A stretch of DNA of 64,000 bases, from NCBI RefSeq assembly GCF_000422085.1, contig NC_021741.1, positions 2,480,001 through 2,544,000 of the forward strand, in the 5' to 3' direction. The position numbers and the translations under genes were made by a program. Under the pieces are notes generated by a model that made no database searches, was not told the DNA's origin, and saw only the letters and a program-made list of their open reading frames with translations. The stretch is from Serratia liquefaciens ATCC 27592. GTDB taxonomy: Bacteria > Pseudomonadota > Gammaproteobacteria > Enterobacterales > Enterobacteriaceae. Of this stretch, positions 9,466 through 17,291 are shown piece after piece (position 1 is the stretch's first letter; the number at the start of each line of letters is the position of its first letter).

Positions 9466-9936
9466 TCAGGAACGTTTGATGGATTGCAGTTCGGTCAGGG
9501 TGACGATTTTATCCACCCGGAATTTCTTGCTGGTCAGCCAGCTGTCGGCCAGCAACCGGTAGTTTTCCATGCTGCGACAGCCAATGCGCACCAGAAAATC
9601 GAAGTTGCCGCTGACCAGCCAGCAATCCAGCACCTCCGGGGTATTACGCATCTCCTGCTCAAACGCCGGTTGGGAATGACCGTGGTCGGCCAGCGCGATC
9701 TGAGCCTGGATCACGAACGCGTGCTCCGGTTCCGGCAGCTCGATGATGGCACTGTAGCCGCGGATGATGCCGTCGCGCTCCAGCCCACGCACCCGTTCCA
9801 GACAGGGGCGAGCGGTCAGATTGACCTGCTCGGACAGCTTTTGATAGGAAATGCGGCCATCCCGGCACAGTATTTCAAGGATTTTTTTGTCGATGCGATC
9901 AAGCCGGGCTTTCTTTTCCACAGATAGGGCGTCCAA
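9466..9936 (-). CDS. AsnC/Lrp-family transcriptional regulator
   Basis: The protein has about 156 residues, the normal Lrp length. The N-terminal HTH is LDRIDKKILEILCRDGRISYQKLSEQVNLTARPCLERVRGL in outline (about 11-51), followed by the RAM ligand domain (about 70-145, with CWLVSGNFDFLVRIGCRSMENY). The longest frame begins with TTG at 9936; a GTG five codons later (9921) with a GGACG upstream is an equally good start. It is divergent to, and touches, the deacylase gene, and lies between it and the importer. Lrp relatives sense amino acids, so it probably regulates one or both flanking units. Confidence 0.88.
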   Translation of the reverse strand: MDALSVEKKARLDRIDKKILEILCRDGRISYQKLSEQVNLTARPCLERVRGLERDGIIRGYSAIIELPEPEHAFVIQAQIALADHGHSQPAFEQEMRNTPEVLDCWLVSGNFDFLVRIGCRSMENYRLLADSWLTSKKFRVDKIVTLTELQSIKRS

Positions 9937-11042
9937 TGAAAAGTAAACATCATAAGTTACCTGAACATGCCCTGGGGGGGCAGCGCCAATTCACCAGTTT
10001 TCATTTCGGCCAGCCGGGCAAAGGCGAAAAAATTTACCTGCAGGCCGGTCTGCATGCCGACGAACTGCCCGGCATGCTGGTGCTGCATTATCTTAAAAGA
10101 TTACTCAGCCAGGCGGAACGGCGTGGTGAGCTGCAAAGCGAAATAATTCTGGTGCCGCTGGCCAATCCTCCAGGGCTGGCGCAGGTACTGCTCAACGGCG
10201 GCGTAGGGCGCTTCGACCTGGTTAGCGGTCGCAACTTCAACCGCGATTTTCCCGACCTGGCGCGTCTGCTGCAAAACCACGATTTTACCGCCTCGGCACC
10301 TCTTCAGCCGCAAGTCCGGGCCGCCATGCGTACCGTTTTGCAAGCCATGACCGAGGGCAGTGAAGTCACGGCACTGCGGCGGCAATTGCTGCTACTGGCC
10401 TGTGATGCCGATGTGGTGCTGGATCTGCACTGTGACGATCGGGCGATCTTGCATATGTACGCCGATCCGGCCTGGGAACGGCAGGCCGAAATTCTGGCGC
10501 GCTTTATGAACATAGCGGCGGTACTGCTTTCGCAAGACAGCGGTGCCGGTTCATTTGATGAAGCCTGCGGTTTGCCCTGGCTTCGGCTGGCGCAACAGCA
10601 TCCTGATCTAAGCCAGCTCAAACCGGGCTGCATGGCGGTTACGCTGGAGTTACGCGGACAGCGAGATATCAGCCATGAATTGGCCAGCGGTGACGCAGAA
10701 CGCTTGTACAGTTATTTACAGCACCGAGGCGCCGTTGCCGGACCCTCTCCGGCGATACCGCAACGCGAAGTGGCGATGCTGCCGTTCGCCGCCGGGGAGA
10801 TCGTTACCGCATCCGCCAGCGGTATTCTGCTGTTGTTGCGCCAGCCGGGGGAATGGGTGGAAGCCGACGAGGCGGTGGCCGAAATTATCGACCCGATCAC
10901 CGATACGGTAAAAGCGGTGCGTGCCAAGGCAGGCGGGCTGATTTATGCCTGTCGGCAAGCGCCTTTTGTCACCCTGGGAGCCGAAGTGATGAAGATTGCC
11001 GGTAAAACTGCCTACGCGGGCGGTGGTGAGTTGGCATTCTGA
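9936..11042 (+). CDS. Succinylglutamate desuccinylase/aspartoacylase-family (AstE-like) deacylase
   Basis: The 368-residue protein is a zinc carboxypeptidase-fold deacylase. Zinc-site motifs are AGLHADE (about 36-42) and VLDLHCDD (about 155-162), with RNFNRDFP between them, and a C-terminal barrel-sandwich segment (VEADEAVAEIIDPITDTVKAV). Family members remove acyl groups from acylated amino acids (succinylglutamate, N-acetylaspartate) or act on related amides. Here it may free an acylated arginine derivative before or after DDAH action; this is inference from context. The start overlaps the first base of the divergent AsnC gene. Confidence 0.82.
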   Translation: MKSKHHKLPEHALGGQRQFTSFHFGQPGKGEKIYLQAGLHADELPGMLVLHYLKRLLSQAERRGELQSEIILVPLANPPGLAQVLLNGGVGRFDLVSGRNFNRDFPDLARLLQNHDFTASAPLQPQVRAAMRTVLQAMTEGSEVTALRRQLLLLACDADVVLDLHCDDRAILHMYADPAWERQAEILARFMNIAAVLLSQDSGAGSFDEACGLPWLRLAQQHPDLSQLKPGCMAVTLELRGQRDISHELASGDAERLYSYLQHRGAVAGPSPAIPQREVAMLPFAAGEIVTASASGILLLLRQPGEWVEADEAVAEIIDPITDTVKAVRAKAGGLIYACRQAPFVTLGAEVMKIAGKTAYAGGGELAF

Positions 11043-11331
11043 GGGCTGTGTGGCCATCGCTCCAGGGTATGACTGATTTCTGGCCCGAAACCGGTAACCG
11101 AAAGGCTGTCGCCATCCAGTTCTACCACGACGAACGGTAGCATTTCATTGCCCTCTGCTGAGGATTTATCTGGTATCAATAATTGATGACAGTTGAGTGT
11201 CGACGGAGCTCCTTCCAGAAGAGGAAAGATGGCTCACTGTTAAGAAATGTTAATTATTTTGAAACCTTAATGTCATTTTAATAGATTAAAAAAACAACTA
11301 TAAATACCGCGCTAAACTTAGGGAATGTGTG
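11043..11331. other. Transition into AT-rich cassette; promoter region of fic
   Basis: The left part (11043-11180) has normal base composition. It carries a short minus-strand open frame (11143-11012, about 43 codons, with MLPFVVVELDGDSLSVTGFG) that runs into the 3' end of the deacylase gene. It looks like a gene remnant, but I cannot name it. From about 11230 the sequence becomes strongly AT-rich. TATAAAT at 11300-11306 is a plausible -10 region for the fic gene. Confidence 0.35.
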
Positions 11332-12111
11332 ATGAATAACTATTTGTTACAAGGGAATGTGATTAAGCTAATGCCGCTGAACTACCCCCGTCATGAAGAT
11401 ATTGAGATCGGATCATGGGATATTATAAATAGCAGTACGTTGATTTTGCAGAACGGCATGCGCTCAGGGATAAATTATGAAACATTTATGATGAATGTAG
11501 AGGGTGCTTTAAAAACAAACAGAACTTCAATTTTGAAACATCGCTTGAGTGCCTATGTTGATAACATAATGTTTGCTAACGAAAACAAGAGCAGCAGAAA
11601 GGATTTCTTGGCTTTTTCATCTTCAGATAAGATACTCGTTGATATTTTAAGGAGTGATGATGATTTCATTGATTTCATTATTTTTATGGGGCTAAAATTC
11701 AGCACTGAAAATGGCATAAGAACAGTGAGTGTTAGGACTGTCCCTGAATTTGATGGAGGTTATACGGAGTTTTTGGATGTTCAGCATTTGTCAACAGAGC
11801 TAAGAAAGTTAAGGCGGTTTATTTTAAATAATCATACAGACAACAAGCTTTTTTGTTCAATTATTGCAGCGGTTTTCTTTATGCATATTCATCCCCTGCA
11901 TGATGGGAATGGCCGTGTATCCAGAGTGTTATTCAATTTGATATTAGGCAGGGATATAAATAACTATATTCCAATGACAGAACTTTGTCACGTGGCCAGG
12001 AGTGGGTACGTTTTAAGCTTAAGGGAAGTATTTTTATTTTCAGAGTGGGGTTCAATTATTATTTTTTATTGTAAGTGCATAAGTATTATTCATGAAAATA
12101 TAGATGAGTAA
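11332..12111 (+). CDS. Fic-domain protein (putative nucleotidyl- or phosphotransferase)
   Basis: The product has 259 residues from the ATG at 11332, six bases after AGGGAA; an in-frame GTG one codon upstream is too close to that site. The Fic core motif HPLHDGNGRVSR is at residues 187-198 and fits HPFx[D/E]GNGRxxR with Leu for Phe, so the catalytic His, Asp, Asn and Arg are present. Upstream is a flap-like strand pair (GIRTVSVRTVPEFDGGYTEF, 128-147). NVEGAL (55-60) resembles the inhibitory-helix motif [S/T]xxxE[G/N] of class II Fic proteins, but with Met at the Ser/Thr position. Fic enzymes usually transfer AMP to a Ser, Thr or Tyr hydroxyl. Codon use is AT-rich, unlike the flanking genes. 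A peptide gene and an exporter follow, so the peptide may be its target (inference). Confidence 0.88.
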   Translation: MNNYLLQGNVIKLMPLNYPRHEDIEIGSWDIINSSTLILQNGMRSGINYETFMMNVEGALKTNRTSILKHRLSAYVDNIMFANENKSSRKDFLAFSSSDKILVDILRSDDDFIDFIIFMGLKFSTENGIRTVSVRTVPEFDGGYTEFLDVQHLSTELRKLRRFILNNHTDNKLFCSIIAAVFFMHIHPLHDGNGRVSRVLFNLILGRDINNYIPMTELCHVARSGYVLSLREVFLFSEWGSIIIFYCKCISIIHENIDE

Positions 12112-12117
12112 CATGTC

Positions 12118-12145
12118 TAGCATGTGAATAAATGATCGCATGCTA
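12118..12145 (+). repeat. Inverted repeat between fic and the peptide gene
   Basis: TAGCATG (12118-12124) and CATGCTA (12139-12145) form a perfect 7-bp inverted repeat around a 14-base AT-rich spacer. It lies just after the fic stop and before the ribosome site of the peptide gene, and could be an operator or an mRNA stem-loop. Confidence 0.4.
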
Positions 12146-12178
12146 TACATCTTACTTTAATTTATAAAAGGAGCTTAC

Positions 12179-12286
12179 ATGCTGAGTGAAAGAGATCTTT
12201 TACTGATTAAAACAACAACCATGACTGATACTCAGGTTGACAAAATTGACCCAACACTGGGTTACAGAAGATTTATTAAGCGCTAA
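12179..12286 (+). CDS. 35-residue peptide, candidate precursor of a modified exported peptide
   Basis: The frame reads MLSERDLLLIKTTTMTDTQV followed by DKIDPTLGYRRFIKR and a TAA stop. It was deduced directly from the sequence and is too short for standard gene finders. Support is the strong ribosome site AAAGGAGC placed 5 bases before the ATG, the correct orientation, and its position between a Fic enzyme and an ABC exporter, with a stem-loop after the stop. The N-terminal half is hydrophobic to acidic and the C-terminal end is basic (YRRFIKR), with Thr12-14, Thr16, Thr18, Thr26 and Tyr29 as possible hydroxyl targets for Fic. No double-Gly or signal-peptide motif is seen. It resembles no family I can name. 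It could also be a regulatory leader peptide. Confidence 0.6.
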   Translation: MLSERDLLLIKTTTMTDTQVDKIDPTLGYRRFIKR

Positions 12287-12291
12287 AACTA

Positions 12292-12321
12292 AAAGCATAG
12301 TGGGGATTCCCGCTATGCTTT
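12292..12321 (+). terminator. Stem-loop after the peptide gene (attenuator-like)
   Basis: AGCATAGTGGG (12294-12304) pairs with CCCGCTATGCT (12309-12319) over 11 positions, including one T-G wobble, around the loop GATT. Flanking AA/TT pairs extend it. Only three T residues follow, so partial termination is likely. Such a stem-loop after a peptide structural gene commonly makes peptide mRNA more abundant than exporter mRNA. Confidence 0.6.
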
Positions 12322-12344
12322 GTGGTATGTGAAAAGGATGCTGG

Positions 12345-14096
12345 ATGAATAAATTTTTATTTATAATCAGATACTTTAAAGGTACATCCAATTTATCAGC
12401 TAAGGGAAATTTTTTTGTCATTATAACCATTTCGCTTCTGTCTACGGTTTTAATATCAGTACAGCCGGTTATCATGGCAAAGTTAATCAGTGGAATTGAA
12501 AGTGAATCCGTTGATTTTAAGTTCATAATATATGCATTGGCGCTCAGTTACATTGTCGTAATGAGCTTAAGGAAACTCGCATCAGCTTTGAATTTTATTC
12601 TCATCACCTCTTTAAGAAGTAACTTGGTCATCAGCATGACAAATGACTATTTCAAAAGCTTGTTTTATAATGCTGATGCTATAAAAATCCATGAAAACAC
12701 CGGCGACATCACTCAGCGGTTGAATCAGGCTATAGATGAACTCACCGTTTTGTTAAGAAATATCTCTCATAATTTTATACCACCACTGTTGCAGTTAGTT
12801 CTTAGCGTGGCTTTTATTGTCATTTCTGGTGATTACATTGTTGCGATGCTGTTCACGCTATATTTTTTGCTGTATTTCATCATTAAAGGGGTTTTTAATC
12901 CAAAGATTGTTGGTTTATACAATGATTTTTACAACACTTCAGTAAAAAAATACAGCCTAATCACTGACAGTGTCAAGAATATGGGGGCCGCTAAAGTCTG
13001 TAACTCTTATGACTATCTGTTTGGTCGCTATGAGGCTTTGCTTCATAAAATAGAAACAAAACATGAGAAATTGCTAAAGGCAGATATGCATTTTCTGCTG
13101 GTCGAGTCCGCCTGCAATATCATTTTTTTTGGTTTGTCTTTCCTCTATTCTTTGTATCAGGTTATGAGTGGAAATATCAGTATCGGCCATTTCGTGATGA
13201 TTTCATCTTATATATTGTTGCTGTCTTCACCTTTGGAAAGCATGGGGTCCATGTATACTGCACTGCAGAAATCCACAGTGTCTCTTTACGGTTTTATTAG
13301 TGCCATGCCAATGATTGTGGCGAGACAGGTTGATTCAGAACAGATCAAGCCTGTCGATTCAATGACAATGAGAGACCTGAGTTTCTCGTATCAAGGTGAG
13401 GGGGGAGCTATCATCAAAGACCTTAATCTTGAGATCGATAAAGGACATTTCATCACCTTAACCGGACGTAGCGGTTCGGGAAAAAGTACGGTGGCTAAAC
13501 TGTTAGCGGGAGAGCTTAAGCCAGAGCAGGGTGAGATCCTTATTAACAATATGAATATTAATGAATTATCTTCGGTTCAGCGGGCTGAGTTGGTTTTCCA
13601 TGTTTCACAAAATGACTATATTTTTATGGATACGTTGAGATTCAACCTAAAGATAGCCTGTCCGGAAGCTACGGATGAACAATTAGCCGTAGCACTCAGG
13701 TTATCCAGGCTCGATGATCTGGTTAATGATGGGAACGCTGATTTGCTGGATATGAGAATCGGTGACAATGGGGTAACGCTTTCTGGCGGCCAACGTCAGC
13801 GGTTGTCTCTGGCTCGGCTTTTTTTACGGACGCCCAGTATCATCATTCTTGATGAGGTGACATCAGCATTGGATGTGATCAATGAGAGAGGGATCATGCA
13901 CAATATTAAAATTTGCTTTCCCAATGCCTTGATATTGAACATCAGCCATCGGAGTTCCACCTTCGATTTCTCGGATGAAATCCTGGTTATGGACAGCGGC
14001 CGTATCGTCGCCAGCGGTGACTTTGTGACGTTAAAAAACAATAATGCCTATATTCAATCGATTCTGCGGCAAGAGGCGTTAAAGCAAGCCAGCTGA
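12345..14096 (+). CDS. ABC exporter, membrane and ATPase domains fused
   Basis: The 583-residue half-transporter has about six transmembrane helices (residues 1-320) followed by an ATPase domain: Walker A TGRSGSGKST (about 377-386), Q-loop near VSQNDYIFMD, signature LSGGQRQRLSLARLF, Walker B PSIIILDEVTSALD (Val replaces the usual Pro) and the H-loop His in ISHRS. There is no N-terminal C39 peptidase domain, so it would not itself cleave a leader. It starts at the ATG after AAGGATG, 58 bases beyond the peptide stop. The AT-rich composition of the membrane half matches the fic gene. Export of the 35-residue peptide and self-protection are the obvious inferences; lipid or drug export remains possible. 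Confidence 0.88.
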   Translation: MNKFLFIIRYFKGTSNLSAKGNFFVIITISLLSTVLISVQPVIMAKLISGIESESVDFKFIIYALALSYIVVMSLRKLASALNFILITSLRSNLVISMTNDYFKSLFYNADAIKIHENTGDITQRLNQAIDELTVLLRNISHNFIPPLLQLVLSVAFIVISGDYIVAMLFTLYFLLYFIIKGVFNPKIVGLYNDFYNTSVKKYSLITDSVKNMGAAKVCNSYDYLFGRYEALLHKIETKHEKLLKADMHFLLVESACNIIFFGLSFLYSLYQVMSGNISIGHFVMISSYILLLSSPLESMGSMYTALQKSTVSLYGFISAMPMIVARQVDSEQIKPVDSMTMRDLSFSYQGEGGAIIKDLNLEIDKGHFITLTGRSGSGKSTVAKLLAGELKPEQGEILINNMNINELSSVQRAELVFHVSQNDYIFMDTLRFNLKIACPEATDEQLAVALRLSRLDDLVNDGNADLLDMRIGDNGVTLSGGQRQRLSLARLFLRTPSIIILDEVTSALDVINERGIMHNIKICFPNALILNISHRSSTFDFSDEILVMDSGRIVASGDFVTLKNNNAYIQSILRQEALKQAS

Positions 14097-14177
14097 GGCA
14101 GAGCACGAGCAAGTCCGTAGCCGCCGGTCTCAGGCAGTGAGCATGCTGGCGGGAAAGATGGCTTGCGGACCGCGGTC

Positions 14178-14235
14178 CATGTTAAATTTGTGCCAGGTAA
14201 CTCTGTATCCCTGATGACAAAGAGAATTTAACATG
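14178..14235. repeat. 11-bp inverted repeat downstream of the exporter
   Basis: CATGTTAAATT (14178-14188) and AATTTAACATG (14225-14235) are perfect inverted copies 36 bases apart. They lie near the point where base composition returns to that of the neighbours. They may mark the edge of the transferred cassette or be a transcript hairpin. Confidence 0.4.
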
Positions 14236-14356
14236 AAGATCGGCCATTTTTATCCCATCACGAAGGATGTTGCCCCCAAGGCCTGTAACGTGGCTCTGCG
14301 ACTGCGGGCCATTGAATATCAGCGATAACCGATCCGCCCCGAAGAAGTCAGACGCT

Positions 14357-14557
14357 ATGCGCACCACCAAACCACGCCGCCCGCATGGCCGATGGGTCTA
14401 CTACATTCTGCATGAAGATATTCTGTGGCCCTGCCCGGTAAAATGGGAGTGGGAGAGCAGTTACCATGCCTGGTTGCCTTTTTACTATTCGCCAACGCTG
14501 GAGTTCGTTGCCGGTAACCCTGCCAAAGCGACAAAAATCACTAAAACCAAGCGTTAA
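14357..14557 (+). CDS. Small basic hypothetical protein
   Basis: A 66-residue frame (MRTTKPRRPHGRWVYYILHE at its start) is rich in Trp, Tyr and Lys, with a Lys/Thr-rich tail (KATKITKTKR). Start choice is uncertain: a longer version begins at 14267 and there is no strong ribosome site. I do not recognise a family. It stands alone between the exporter cassette and adhP, and may be a genuine small protein or a fragment. Confidence 0.35.
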   Translation: MRTTKPRRPHGRWVYYILHEDILWPCPVKWEWESSYHAWLPFYYSPTLEFVAGNPAKATKITKTKR

Positions 14558-14699
14558 TCATTATTTTCGTTTCACGACCGCAATCGTGCTGTTGATATTA
14601 AATATTTGTTTTTAAACAAAACCCCACATTTCTTGCCCTCGGGGTTATGAGTAACTACATTAACAACTGTACTTCAACTCACCTGAGGAGAGAAATCCT

Positions 14700-15713
14700 A
14701 TGAAAGCAGCCGTAGTGACTAAAGACCACAGTGTCGATATTCAGGATAAACAGCTTCGTCCACTGAAACACGGTGAGGCCGCGCTGAAAATGGAGTGTTG
14801 CGGCGTTTGCCATACCGATCTTCACGTCAAAAATGGCGATTTTGGCGAAGTGCCCGGCATCACCCTAGGGCACGAAGGGATTGGGGTAGTCACCGCCGTA
14901 GGTGAAGGTGTCACCTCGTTGAAAGTCGGAGATCGCACCAGCGTCGCCTGGTTTTATCAGGGATGTGGTCATTGCGAATATTGCGTTAATGGTAACGAAA
15001 CGCTGTGCCGCTCGGTGAAAAATGCCGGTTACAGCGTCGACGGCGGTATGGCGGAAGAGTGCATCGTAGTGGCGGACTATGCGGTCAAGGTGCCGGATGG
15101 CCTGGACTCCTTTGCAGCCAGCAGCATTACCTGTGCCGGTGTCACTACCTATAAGGCGGTGAAAATTTCCGACATCAAACCGGGGCAGTGGATCGCGATT
15201 TACGGCCTGGGCGGCTTGGGCAACCTGGCATTGCAGTATGCCAAGAACGTGTTCAACGCCAAAGTGATCGCCATTGACGTCAACCAGGGGCAGTTGGATT
15301 TCGCCAAAGAAATCGGCGCCGATCTGGTCATCAACTCCAAAACTGAAAACGCCGAAGAAATCATTCAGCAAAAAGTCGGTGGCGCGCATGCTGCCGTAGT
15401 CACCGCGGTGGCGCGTTCAGCCTTTAATTCTGCGGTCAATGCGGTTCGCGCAGGGGGCAAAGTGGTCGCTGTGGGGCTACCGCCAGAGAGTATGGATCTG
15501 AGCATTCCACGCTTGGTATTGGACGGTATTCAGGTTGTGGGCTCGTTGGTGGGAACCCGTGAAGACCTTAAGGAAGCTTTCCAGTTTGCCGCCGAAGGCA
15601 AAGTGACGCCGAAAGTGACCAAGCGTCCATTGGGCGACATCAACGCGATCTTCGAAGAGATGAAGTCGGGCACTATCCGTGGCCGCATGGTTATCGATCT
15701 CTCCGCATCATAA
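14700..15713 (+). CDS. adhP: Zinc-dependent alcohol dehydrogenase, propanol-preferring
   Basis: The 337-residue protein has the normal AdhP length and strong resemblance over its whole extent. It oxidises ethanol, propanol and similar alcohols (or reduces aldehydes) with NAD in the cytoplasm. The catalytic zinc site is CGVCHTDLH (about 36-44) with GHEGIG; the structural zinc loop is [16 protein letters not shown] (about 88-103). The Rossmann motif is [16 protein letters not shown] (about 168-183). GAGGAG precedes the ATG. A strong terminator follows. The acetaldehyde dehydrogenase aldB lies just beyond, convergently, so the two can turn alcohol into acid. Confidence 0.93.
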
Positions 15714-15727
15714 TCCCGCGCAAATAA

Positions 15728-15751
15728 CTAAGGCCACCGAGGTGGCCTTAG
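15728..15751 (+). terminator. Rho-independent terminator of adhP
   Basis: CTAAGGCCAC and GTGGCCTTAG form a 10-bp stem with the loop CGAG, followed by TTT. It lies between the convergent adhP and aldB genes and may work in both directions. Confidence 0.8.
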
Positions 15752-15770
15752 TTTGCAGTAACGCTAAAAA

Positions 15771-17291
15771 TCAAAACAGCCCGAGCGGCTTACTGTCGTA
15801 ACTGACCAACAGGTTTTTGACCTGCTGGTAATGCGACAGCGCTACCTTGTGGGTCTCGCGGCCGACGCCGGAGTTTTTGTAACCGCCGAAGGCAGCATGC
15901 GCCGGATACAGGTGATAACAGTTGGTCCACACGCGTCCGGCCTTGATGGCGCGCCCCATGCGATAGGCGCGATTTACGTCGCGGGTCCACAAACCGGCAC
16001 CCAGCCCGAACTCACTGTCGTTGGCCAATGCCAGTGCTTCGGCTTCGTCTTTGAAGGTGGTCACGCCGATCACCGGTCCGAAGATCTCTTCACGGAAGAA
16101 ACGCATGCTGTTATTGCCGGTGATTAAGGTGGGCTGCAGATAAAAACCGCTTTGCAAAGTTTGCTCATGGCTGGCGCGCTCGCCGCCGGCAATGATTTTT
16201 CCGCCTTCGTTTTTAGCGATCTCGATGTAAGACAGGATCTTGTCGAACTGCTGCTGAGACGCCTGAGCACCGATCATGGTGTCGGTGTCAAAGGGGTCAC
16301 CCTGGCGAATGGTGGTGATGCGCGCCAGCACTTTTTCCATAAATTGCGGGTAAATCGATTCCTGAATCAGGGCGCGCGAAGGGCAGGTACAGACTTCACC
16401 CTGGTTGAAGAAGCCAAGAATCAGCCCCTCAACCGCCTTGTCGATGAATTCGGGTTCCGCCTGCATGATGTCTTCAAAGAAGATGTTAGGCGATTTACCG
16501 CCCAGCTCCACGGTGCTGGGAATGATATTTTCCGCCGCGCAGGCCAGAATATGGCGGCCTACCGGGGTTGAACCGGTAAAGGCGATTTTGTCGATACGCT
16601 TGCTGGTTGCCAATGCCTCACCGGCTTCTTTACCGAAACCGTGAACCACATTGAGCACGCCCGGCGGCAGCAAGTCACCAATCATTTCCAGCAGCACGCA
16701 GATGCTGAGCGGGGTTTGCTCCGCCGGTTTAAGCACCACGCAGTTGCCGGCGGCCAGCGCCGGGGCTAGTTTCCATGCGGCCATCAACAGCGGGAAGTTC
16801 CAGGGAATAATCTGCCCAACCACGCCCAGAGGCTCATAGATATGGTAGGCCACGGTGTTTTGATCGATCTCAGCGGCGGTGCCTTCCTGTGCACGCAAAC
16901 AGCCGGCGAAATAGCGGAAGTGGTCGATCGCCAGCGGAATGTCCGCGTTCAGCGTTTCGCGGATCGGTTTGCCGTTGTCCCAGCTTTCGGTCAGTGCCAG
17001 CAATTCGAGCTTTGACTCCATACGATCGGCGATCGCCAGCAGCACATTAGACCTTTCCTGAACGCTGGCTTTCCCCCAGGTTTCGGCTGCGGCATGCGCC
17101 GCATCCAGCGCTTGTTCGATATCTTTCGCGTCGGAGCGCGGGAATTCGGCGACAGTCTGACCTGTCATCGGGGAGGTGTCGGTGAAGTAGTTGCCTGAAA
17201 CGGGTTCGACAAATTTGCCGCCAATGTAGTTGCCGTAGCGCTGTTTGAAAGAGACCAACGAACCAGGCAAACCAGGATGAACGTATTTCAT
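15771..17291 (-). CDS. aldB: NAD(P)-dependent aldehyde dehydrogenase, AldB/ExaC type
   Basis: From the start [20 protein letters not shown] the protein has 506 residues, as expected for AldB/ExaC acetaldehyde dehydrogenases, which convert acetaldehyde to acetate. Visible are the cofactor segment [26 protein letters not shown], the catalytic Glu in [12 protein letters not shown] and the catalytic Cys in [12 protein letters not shown]. The upstream frame to 17423 is rejected because it runs through the promoter. A sigma-54 promoter lies upstream, and the divergent sigma-54 activator at 17569 is the expected regulator. Redox partner: adhP at 14700. Confidence 0.92.

Follow-up and report, generated by a model that had tools for sequence, protein, structure and literature searches.

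A Fic-domain protein, a conserved short peptide and an McjD-type exporter form a candidate peptide-production module in Serratia

We analysed a window of 64,000 nucleotides from Serratia liquefaciens ATCC 27592 (contig NC_021741.1, positions 2,480,001 to 2,544,000), part of a 5.28 Mb genome, in which a three-gene module lies on the forward strand at positions 11238 to 14096. The genes are fic, encoding a Fic-domain protein (11332 to 12111), an unannotated peptide gene of 35 codons (12179 to 12286) and a gene for an ATP-binding cassette (ABC) exporter (12345 to 14096), with a hairpin (12292 to 12321) in the gap between the last two. The limits of the module were obtained by blastn of 9901 to 15800 against three loci of other genomes (L021, L024 and L073), and the block 11238 to 14089 is common to the window, L021 and L024. 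An earlier prediction made from the letters of the sequence (the original prediction) had placed the three genes on one strand in AT-rich DNA, and this was borne out by the list of open reading frames (ORFs) and by the GC content, which is 37.6% for 11238 to 14089 versus 57.0% and 55.2% in the 6-kb flanks. The module contains no further immunity, protease or regulator gene; the original prediction likewise saw no separate immunity gene.

The start of fic was placed at ATG 11332; a GTG at 11329 is also in frame, and the homologues begin with M[EN]NY, which fits 11332. The protein matched Pfam PF02661 (E 4.2e-7), scoring 31.2 bits where the cut-off is 24, and carries the motif HPLHDGNGRVSR, which is intact, as had been noted. 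Pfam, alignment and comparison of models and folds point to a SoFic-like fold and a predicted nucleotide transferase. The active-site pattern HP[FL]xDGNGRxxR was found in all 18 proteins of the subfamily, placing them in the Fic/DOC family, and the closest named relative, from S. liquefaciens, is 97% identical. The known Fic enzymes modify proteins and serve as toxins, effectors and regulators, and self-inhibited ones of the SoFic or NmFic type carry the inhibitory motif (S/T)xxxE(G/N) within the enzyme. This pattern is absent from 15 of the 18 subfamily proteins and occurs in the other three at non-equivalent positions (252 in the window protein, 60 in P0011 and 77 in P0015). The subfamily differs from the SoFic-type adenosine monophosphate (AMP) transferases in this respect, in length (about 260 residues against 369) and in an invariant LxHxLS motif. 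The latter, encoded at 11533 to 11550 (residues 69 to 74 counted from 11329), is present in all 18 proteins, three distant ones included, and is possibly part of peptide recognition.

Six loci with this trio were read: the window, L021 (genome G026; Serratia sp. PL17), L022 (G015; S. grimesii NBRC 13537), L023 (G007), L024 (G022) and L069 (G854; Samsonia), the exporter of the last showing no difference, over 585 residues, from a protein named Samsonia erythrinae. An ORF of 27 to 35 codons was found between fic and the exporter gene in every one of them, five from Serratia and one from Samsonia. That of the window, with AAAGGAGC directly 5' of it as a ribosome site, encodes MLSERDLLLIKTTTMTDTQVDKIDPTLGYRRFIKR; the others encode MLTEKDLLLIKTTTMTDTQVDKIDPTLGFKRFVKI (L021), MLTEKDLLLIKTTTMTDTQVGKGDIWTTSKT (L022), MLTEKDILLIKTTTMTDTQVDKISTQR (L023), MLTEKDLLLIKTTTMTDTQVDKIDPTLGYKRFIKI (L024) and MLSEKDLILIKSTTMTDTQDDKIDPIFGLN (L069). 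The family libraries that were tried annotated none of these genes. Over codons 1 to 23, the pooled proportion of synonymous differences (pS) was 0.740 and that of non-synonymous differences (pN) 0.078 (15 pairs from six peptides), giving a pN/pS of 0.105. This ratio is rough, since pS approaches saturation and the pairs are not independent, but its direction is clear and indicates purifying selection on this block. Because the ORF is present in six of six loci and pN/pS is 0.105 over codons 1 to 23, the small ORF at 12179 to 12286 is a real, conserved peptide gene, as had been proposed. Loss of the frame in relatives that keep fic and the exporter had been named beforehand as a sign against the idea; the frame is conserved there, and the idea survives.

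The conserved part of the peptide is its N-terminal block, residues 1 to 23, and not the C-terminal part, where conservation had been expected; residues 24 to 35 form a variable tail, the least conserved part, and C-terminal conservation was rejected. In the three peptides sharing DPTLG the tail is conserved too (2 to 5 non-synonymous changes in about 27 sites), and the large tail differences fall between peptide groups. This pattern bears on another reading of the ORF, as a regulatory leader or arrest peptide that controls the exporter together with the hairpin, with fic and the exporter forming a separate stress or detoxification pair. The ORF does lie directly 5' of the hairpin and the exporter start. 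In arrest peptides, however, conservation is usually seen in the C-terminal part, close to where the ribosome stalls. Here it is the N-terminal residues that are under selection; the C-terminal end differs between peptides both in sequence and in length, and a separate ribosome site precedes the ORF. We consider this explanation quite improbable.

We examined the hydroxyl residues of the six peptides as potential acceptors of a Fic modification. The only hydroxyl positions common to all six are 3, 12, 13, 14, 16 and 18, and the Samsonia peptide has its hydroxyls solely at these positions. If one common acceptor exists, it is among them. Since the cluster at residues 12 to 18 (TTTMTDT in the window, codons at 12212 to 12232) holds, with position 3, the only hydroxyls common to the six peptides, we propose this Thr cluster as the target, and it would be the natural choice for modification. 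Tyr29, which had also been suggested, occurs in the window and L024 peptides only and was rejected as a conserved Fic site on account of its absence from the other four.

The front of the peptide is thus conserved and the tail variable, yet the likely target sits in the front. A conserved front and a variable back resemble a leader and a core, and in a classical arrangement of this kind the front would be the leader and the tail the core, which Fic would modify before a host protease cuts the leader off. Ser, Thr or Tyr is present in five of the six tails. The Samsonia tail, however, has no hydroxyl although the fic and exporter frames of that locus are open, no peptidase gene was found in the module, and the exporter has no C39 domain among its best 25 of 27 Pfam matches. 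These observations make the leader-and-core arrangement very improbable.

The exporter is a protein of 583 residues with fused membrane (ABC_membrane) and ATPase (ABC_tran) domains, and it agrees, with no C39 peptidase among those same matches, with the complete ABC exporter lacking a peptidase domain that had been described. Its best solved relative is McjD (4pl0; E 6.2e-102), the next one scoring 6e-61. Plasmid exporters at 36 to 38% identity include neighbours of lasso-peptide genes; three plasmid regions were opened at exporter matches, two with annotated lasso-peptide genes and one with none annotated, and in an annotated microcin J25 locus the exporter shares 38% identity with that of the module over 521 residues. 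With McjD as closest solved relative, fused domains and no peptidase in the Pfam matches considered, the exporter is, by sequence, of the McjD peptide-exporter type, for which secretion and self-immunity are predicted functions. McjD itself is required for both secretion and self-immunity (PMC5641919).

A remnant locus in a further Serratia genome, G019 (L025, 6218 to 8100), bears on the immunity function. Here, fic is cut to about its first 30 codons, the peptide gene and the hairpin are gone, and the exporter is one intact frame. Retention of an intact exporter where the peptide gene and the bulk of fic have gone is how an immunity gene would be expected to behave, as judged from this one genome. 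The suggestion in the original prediction that the exporter may confer immunity fits this exporter-only remnant.

To examine the co-occurrence of the three genes, we searched 30 genomes of the genus. The Fic subfamily was found in five of them (in G022 as two pieces), and a degenerate DNA pattern for IK[ST]TTMTDTQ was found in exactly the same five, with no match for the reversed control. The exporter (E 1e-140 or better) was also found in five, namely four of the fic carriers and G019; in the fifth carrier, G022, the exporter frame breaks, either really or from sequencing. At this locus (L024, 5764 to 8531) the fic and exporter frames are both broken and the peptide gene is intact, through decay or sequencing errors. 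In the family samples, fic was present in 3 of 392 genomes and the peptide pattern in 3 of 384, and these are the same three genomes. As a control, 44 loci with Fic proteins from outside the subfamily were examined over at most 1.5 kb on either side (some shortened by contig ends); they had no related exporters and no such peptides, versus six of six for this subfamily. The possibility that fic and the exporter mostly occur apart, also named beforehand as speaking against the idea, was checked in this way and the idea survives: all six subfamily loci are paired, and the fic-peptide-exporter trio stands as a conserved unit.

Beyond these samples, a database-wide search gave 14 Fic proteins of at least 38% identity as well as close exporters, both named Serratia and Pectobacterium; Samsonia, S. 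proteamaculans and S. plymuthica were named for the exporter only. The named public copies include those of S. marcescens and S. quinivorans. Fic searches of an order sample (394 genomes; 3 matches) and a phylum sample (398 genomes; 48 matches) recovered the copy of the window itself; the remaining matches were partial and fell in different, mostly longer, Fic proteins.

The gap between the peptide stop and the exporter start contains, in all six loci, a stem of 9 to 15 pairs (G-T counted) with a four-base loop; in the window the stem has 13 pairs. The loop is GGCC in five loci and GATT in the window, and when the hairpins are aligned from the loop, 10 of 15 stem positions have two-sided pair changes between loci. 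As the stems were chosen by visual inspection and for maximal pairing, in the absence of a shuffle control, these changes support, and do not measure, a conserved structure. The terminator scan does not list the hairpin, and an ordinary terminator was rejected as its identity. It might protect or dampen the message, which would favour the peptide over the exporter.

We compared the module with known systems. Like the microcin J25 operon (mcjA, mcjB, mcjC and mcjD), it combines a short precursor gene, a candidate modifier and an McjD-type exporter, the exporter being related by sequence (the match to 4pl0), but it has Fic in place of the lasso maturases. No lasso B-protein protease and no asparagine-synthetase-like cyclase were found in the module at 11238 to 14096, the part of the genome searched for them, and the window peptide is unlike lasso precursors, judged by inspection only. 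Microcin C is a peptide-nucleotide made by MccB, a ThiF/E1-like enzyme that acts on a C-terminal Asn. Here too, a nucleotide would be attached to a ribosomal peptide, but the enzyme would be Fic, the sole modifying-enzyme candidate in the module, where no enzyme of the MccB type is found; the acceptors would be Thr or Ser side chains, the peptides have 27 to 35 residues, and one of the six ends in Asn.

A further alternative is a toxin-antitoxin or anti-phage defence unit, with a Fic toxin restrained or relieved by the peptide or the exporter. In PADLOC, Fic matched candidate PDC models as well as the model for SoFic (E 1.3e-11), and the exporter matched ATPase models such as mad3 (1.6e-25); an AT-rich mobile cassette would also suit such a unit. 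A match at the level of the ATPase is, however, expected for any ABC protein, and a peptide exporter has no place there. Known Fic antitoxins, as in FicT-FicA and VbhT-VbhA, precede fic and carry (S/T)xxxE(G/N); the peptide gene here follows fic, and the motif, read by eye, is in none of the six peptides. Of the explanations weighed, we regard this one as the least probable.

Taken together, these results suggest that the module encodes the peptide, the Fic enzyme and the McjD-type exporter as one production unit. We propose that Fic attaches a nucleotide, AMP being expected, to the conserved Thr cluster at residues 12 to 18, and that the exporter secretes the product and protects the producer, with the hairpin favouring peptide over exporter production. 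The variable tail may set specificity or may be trimmed, and the product would be a microcin-like antibacterial or a signal. That the peptide is nucleotidylated by Fic at the Thr cluster and then exported by an McjD-type pump giving self-protection has, in our estimate, a somewhat better than even chance. Of the original prediction, the trio, the peptide gene, the kind of exporter and the fit to immunity are retained, and Tyr29 and the C-terminal conservation are dropped.

The main alternative to this is that the peptide is made and exported and acts unmodified, and that Fic has another substrate, for instance a regulator of the module or, for self-protection, the peptide's own target in the cell. 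In all loci read fic adjoins the peptide gene, and such linkage alone is no proof of an enzyme-substrate relation. Topoisomerase IV (PMC7479194) is an example of the proteins that known Fic enzymes modify. On the other side, conservation of the peptide is highest in the block where five hydroxyl residues lie close together, and the module has no further gene that could encode a candidate substrate. In addition, G019 kept the exporter when the peptide and most of fic were lost, which fits a role of fic in production better than one in protection (in one genome). We therefore consider action on another target unlikely, and the peptide as the probable substrate of Fic.

Several points weigh against modification by Fic and export by the McjD-type pump. 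The translation, modification, export and activity of the peptide are all predicted from sequence; the selection estimate comes from six peptides only, with pS near saturation; and the likely target is within the conserved front, which in most ribosomally synthesized and post-translationally modified peptides would be an unmodified leader. The tail ranges in length from about 4 to 12 residues with no clear pattern, the lack of a protease in the module leaves processing without explanation, and the exporter occurs alone in G019. The module is also narrow in distribution, found in Serratia and Samsonia, plus Pectobacterium by proteins only.

Among the papers listed by searches of the open-licence literature, none describes a ribosomal peptide that is produced by a Fic enzyme or a natural-product precursor of ribosomal origin as a Fic substrate; "FIC" in PMC9491552 stands for fractional inhibitory concentration, and PMC12325987 is without the whole word "Fic". 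Whether the module represents the first ribosomal peptide class with Fic as sole maturase is, in our judgement, evenly balanced: it would be a microcin with AMP or another nucleotide on a Thr cluster, with an McjD-type pump for export and immunity, encoded by a minimal three-gene mobile cassette without another immunity gene. If this is true, a Fic enzyme maturing a secreted peptide would be new chemistry, placing a nucleotide on Thr or Ser of ribosomal peptides, and Fic biochemistry would gain a short, defined substrate. As the peptide genes are short and unannotated, a locus of this kind looks like a lone fic that happens to lie next to an exporter. Six natural peptides of 27 to 35 residues make the idea of Fic modification testable with one enzyme.

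The surroundings of the module were compared between loci. The block adjoins an M14-like gene in the window, L021 and L024, with an alcohol dehydrogenase gene on the other side in the window and L024. The module recurs at four different sites as fic-peptide-exporter, because the neighbour genes in L022, L023 and L069 are quite different from those of this site. In genome G011 (L073) the same site carries a sugar-importer-like operon (by translations) and a phosphodiesterase gene, with no trio. Window positions 11045 to 11234 and 14130 to 14300 match the ends of this operon, which is kept whole in G011, and the window genome seems, from these matches, to have lost it, while L021 holds this further insert as well as the trio. 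Just 5' of fic in S. grimesii (L022, 7888 to 7948) lies an element of about 60 bases that is repeated elsewhere in several Serratia genomes and may mark the insertion. No tRNA was found in the window or in six loci of 13 to 16 kb, and tRNA-guided insertion was rejected for these. Phage carriage was rejected after a viral_contigs scan (270 pattern matches, no relative), and plasmid carriage after a plasmid collection gave only a distant Sphingomonas match.

That match lies on plasmid pISP0 of Sphingomonas sp. MM-1 (L033, 2801 to 6309), where an ABC ATPase gene is followed, one base further on, by the gene for a distant Fic protein of 260 residues. This locus differs from the module in that the gene order is reversed and the exporter is broken by an IS5 element, and no peptide gene was recognised among its listed ORFs. 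A search with the Sphingomonas Fic protein returned only itself and one Hephaestia protein, and a search with a distant Fic protein in one further family (74 genomes), which may not be the right one for the Sphingomonad branch, gave none. The sequence of pISP0 hints that the pairing of Fic and exporter is older than the Enterobacterales module, with this plasmid locus as a possible alphaproteobacterial relative.
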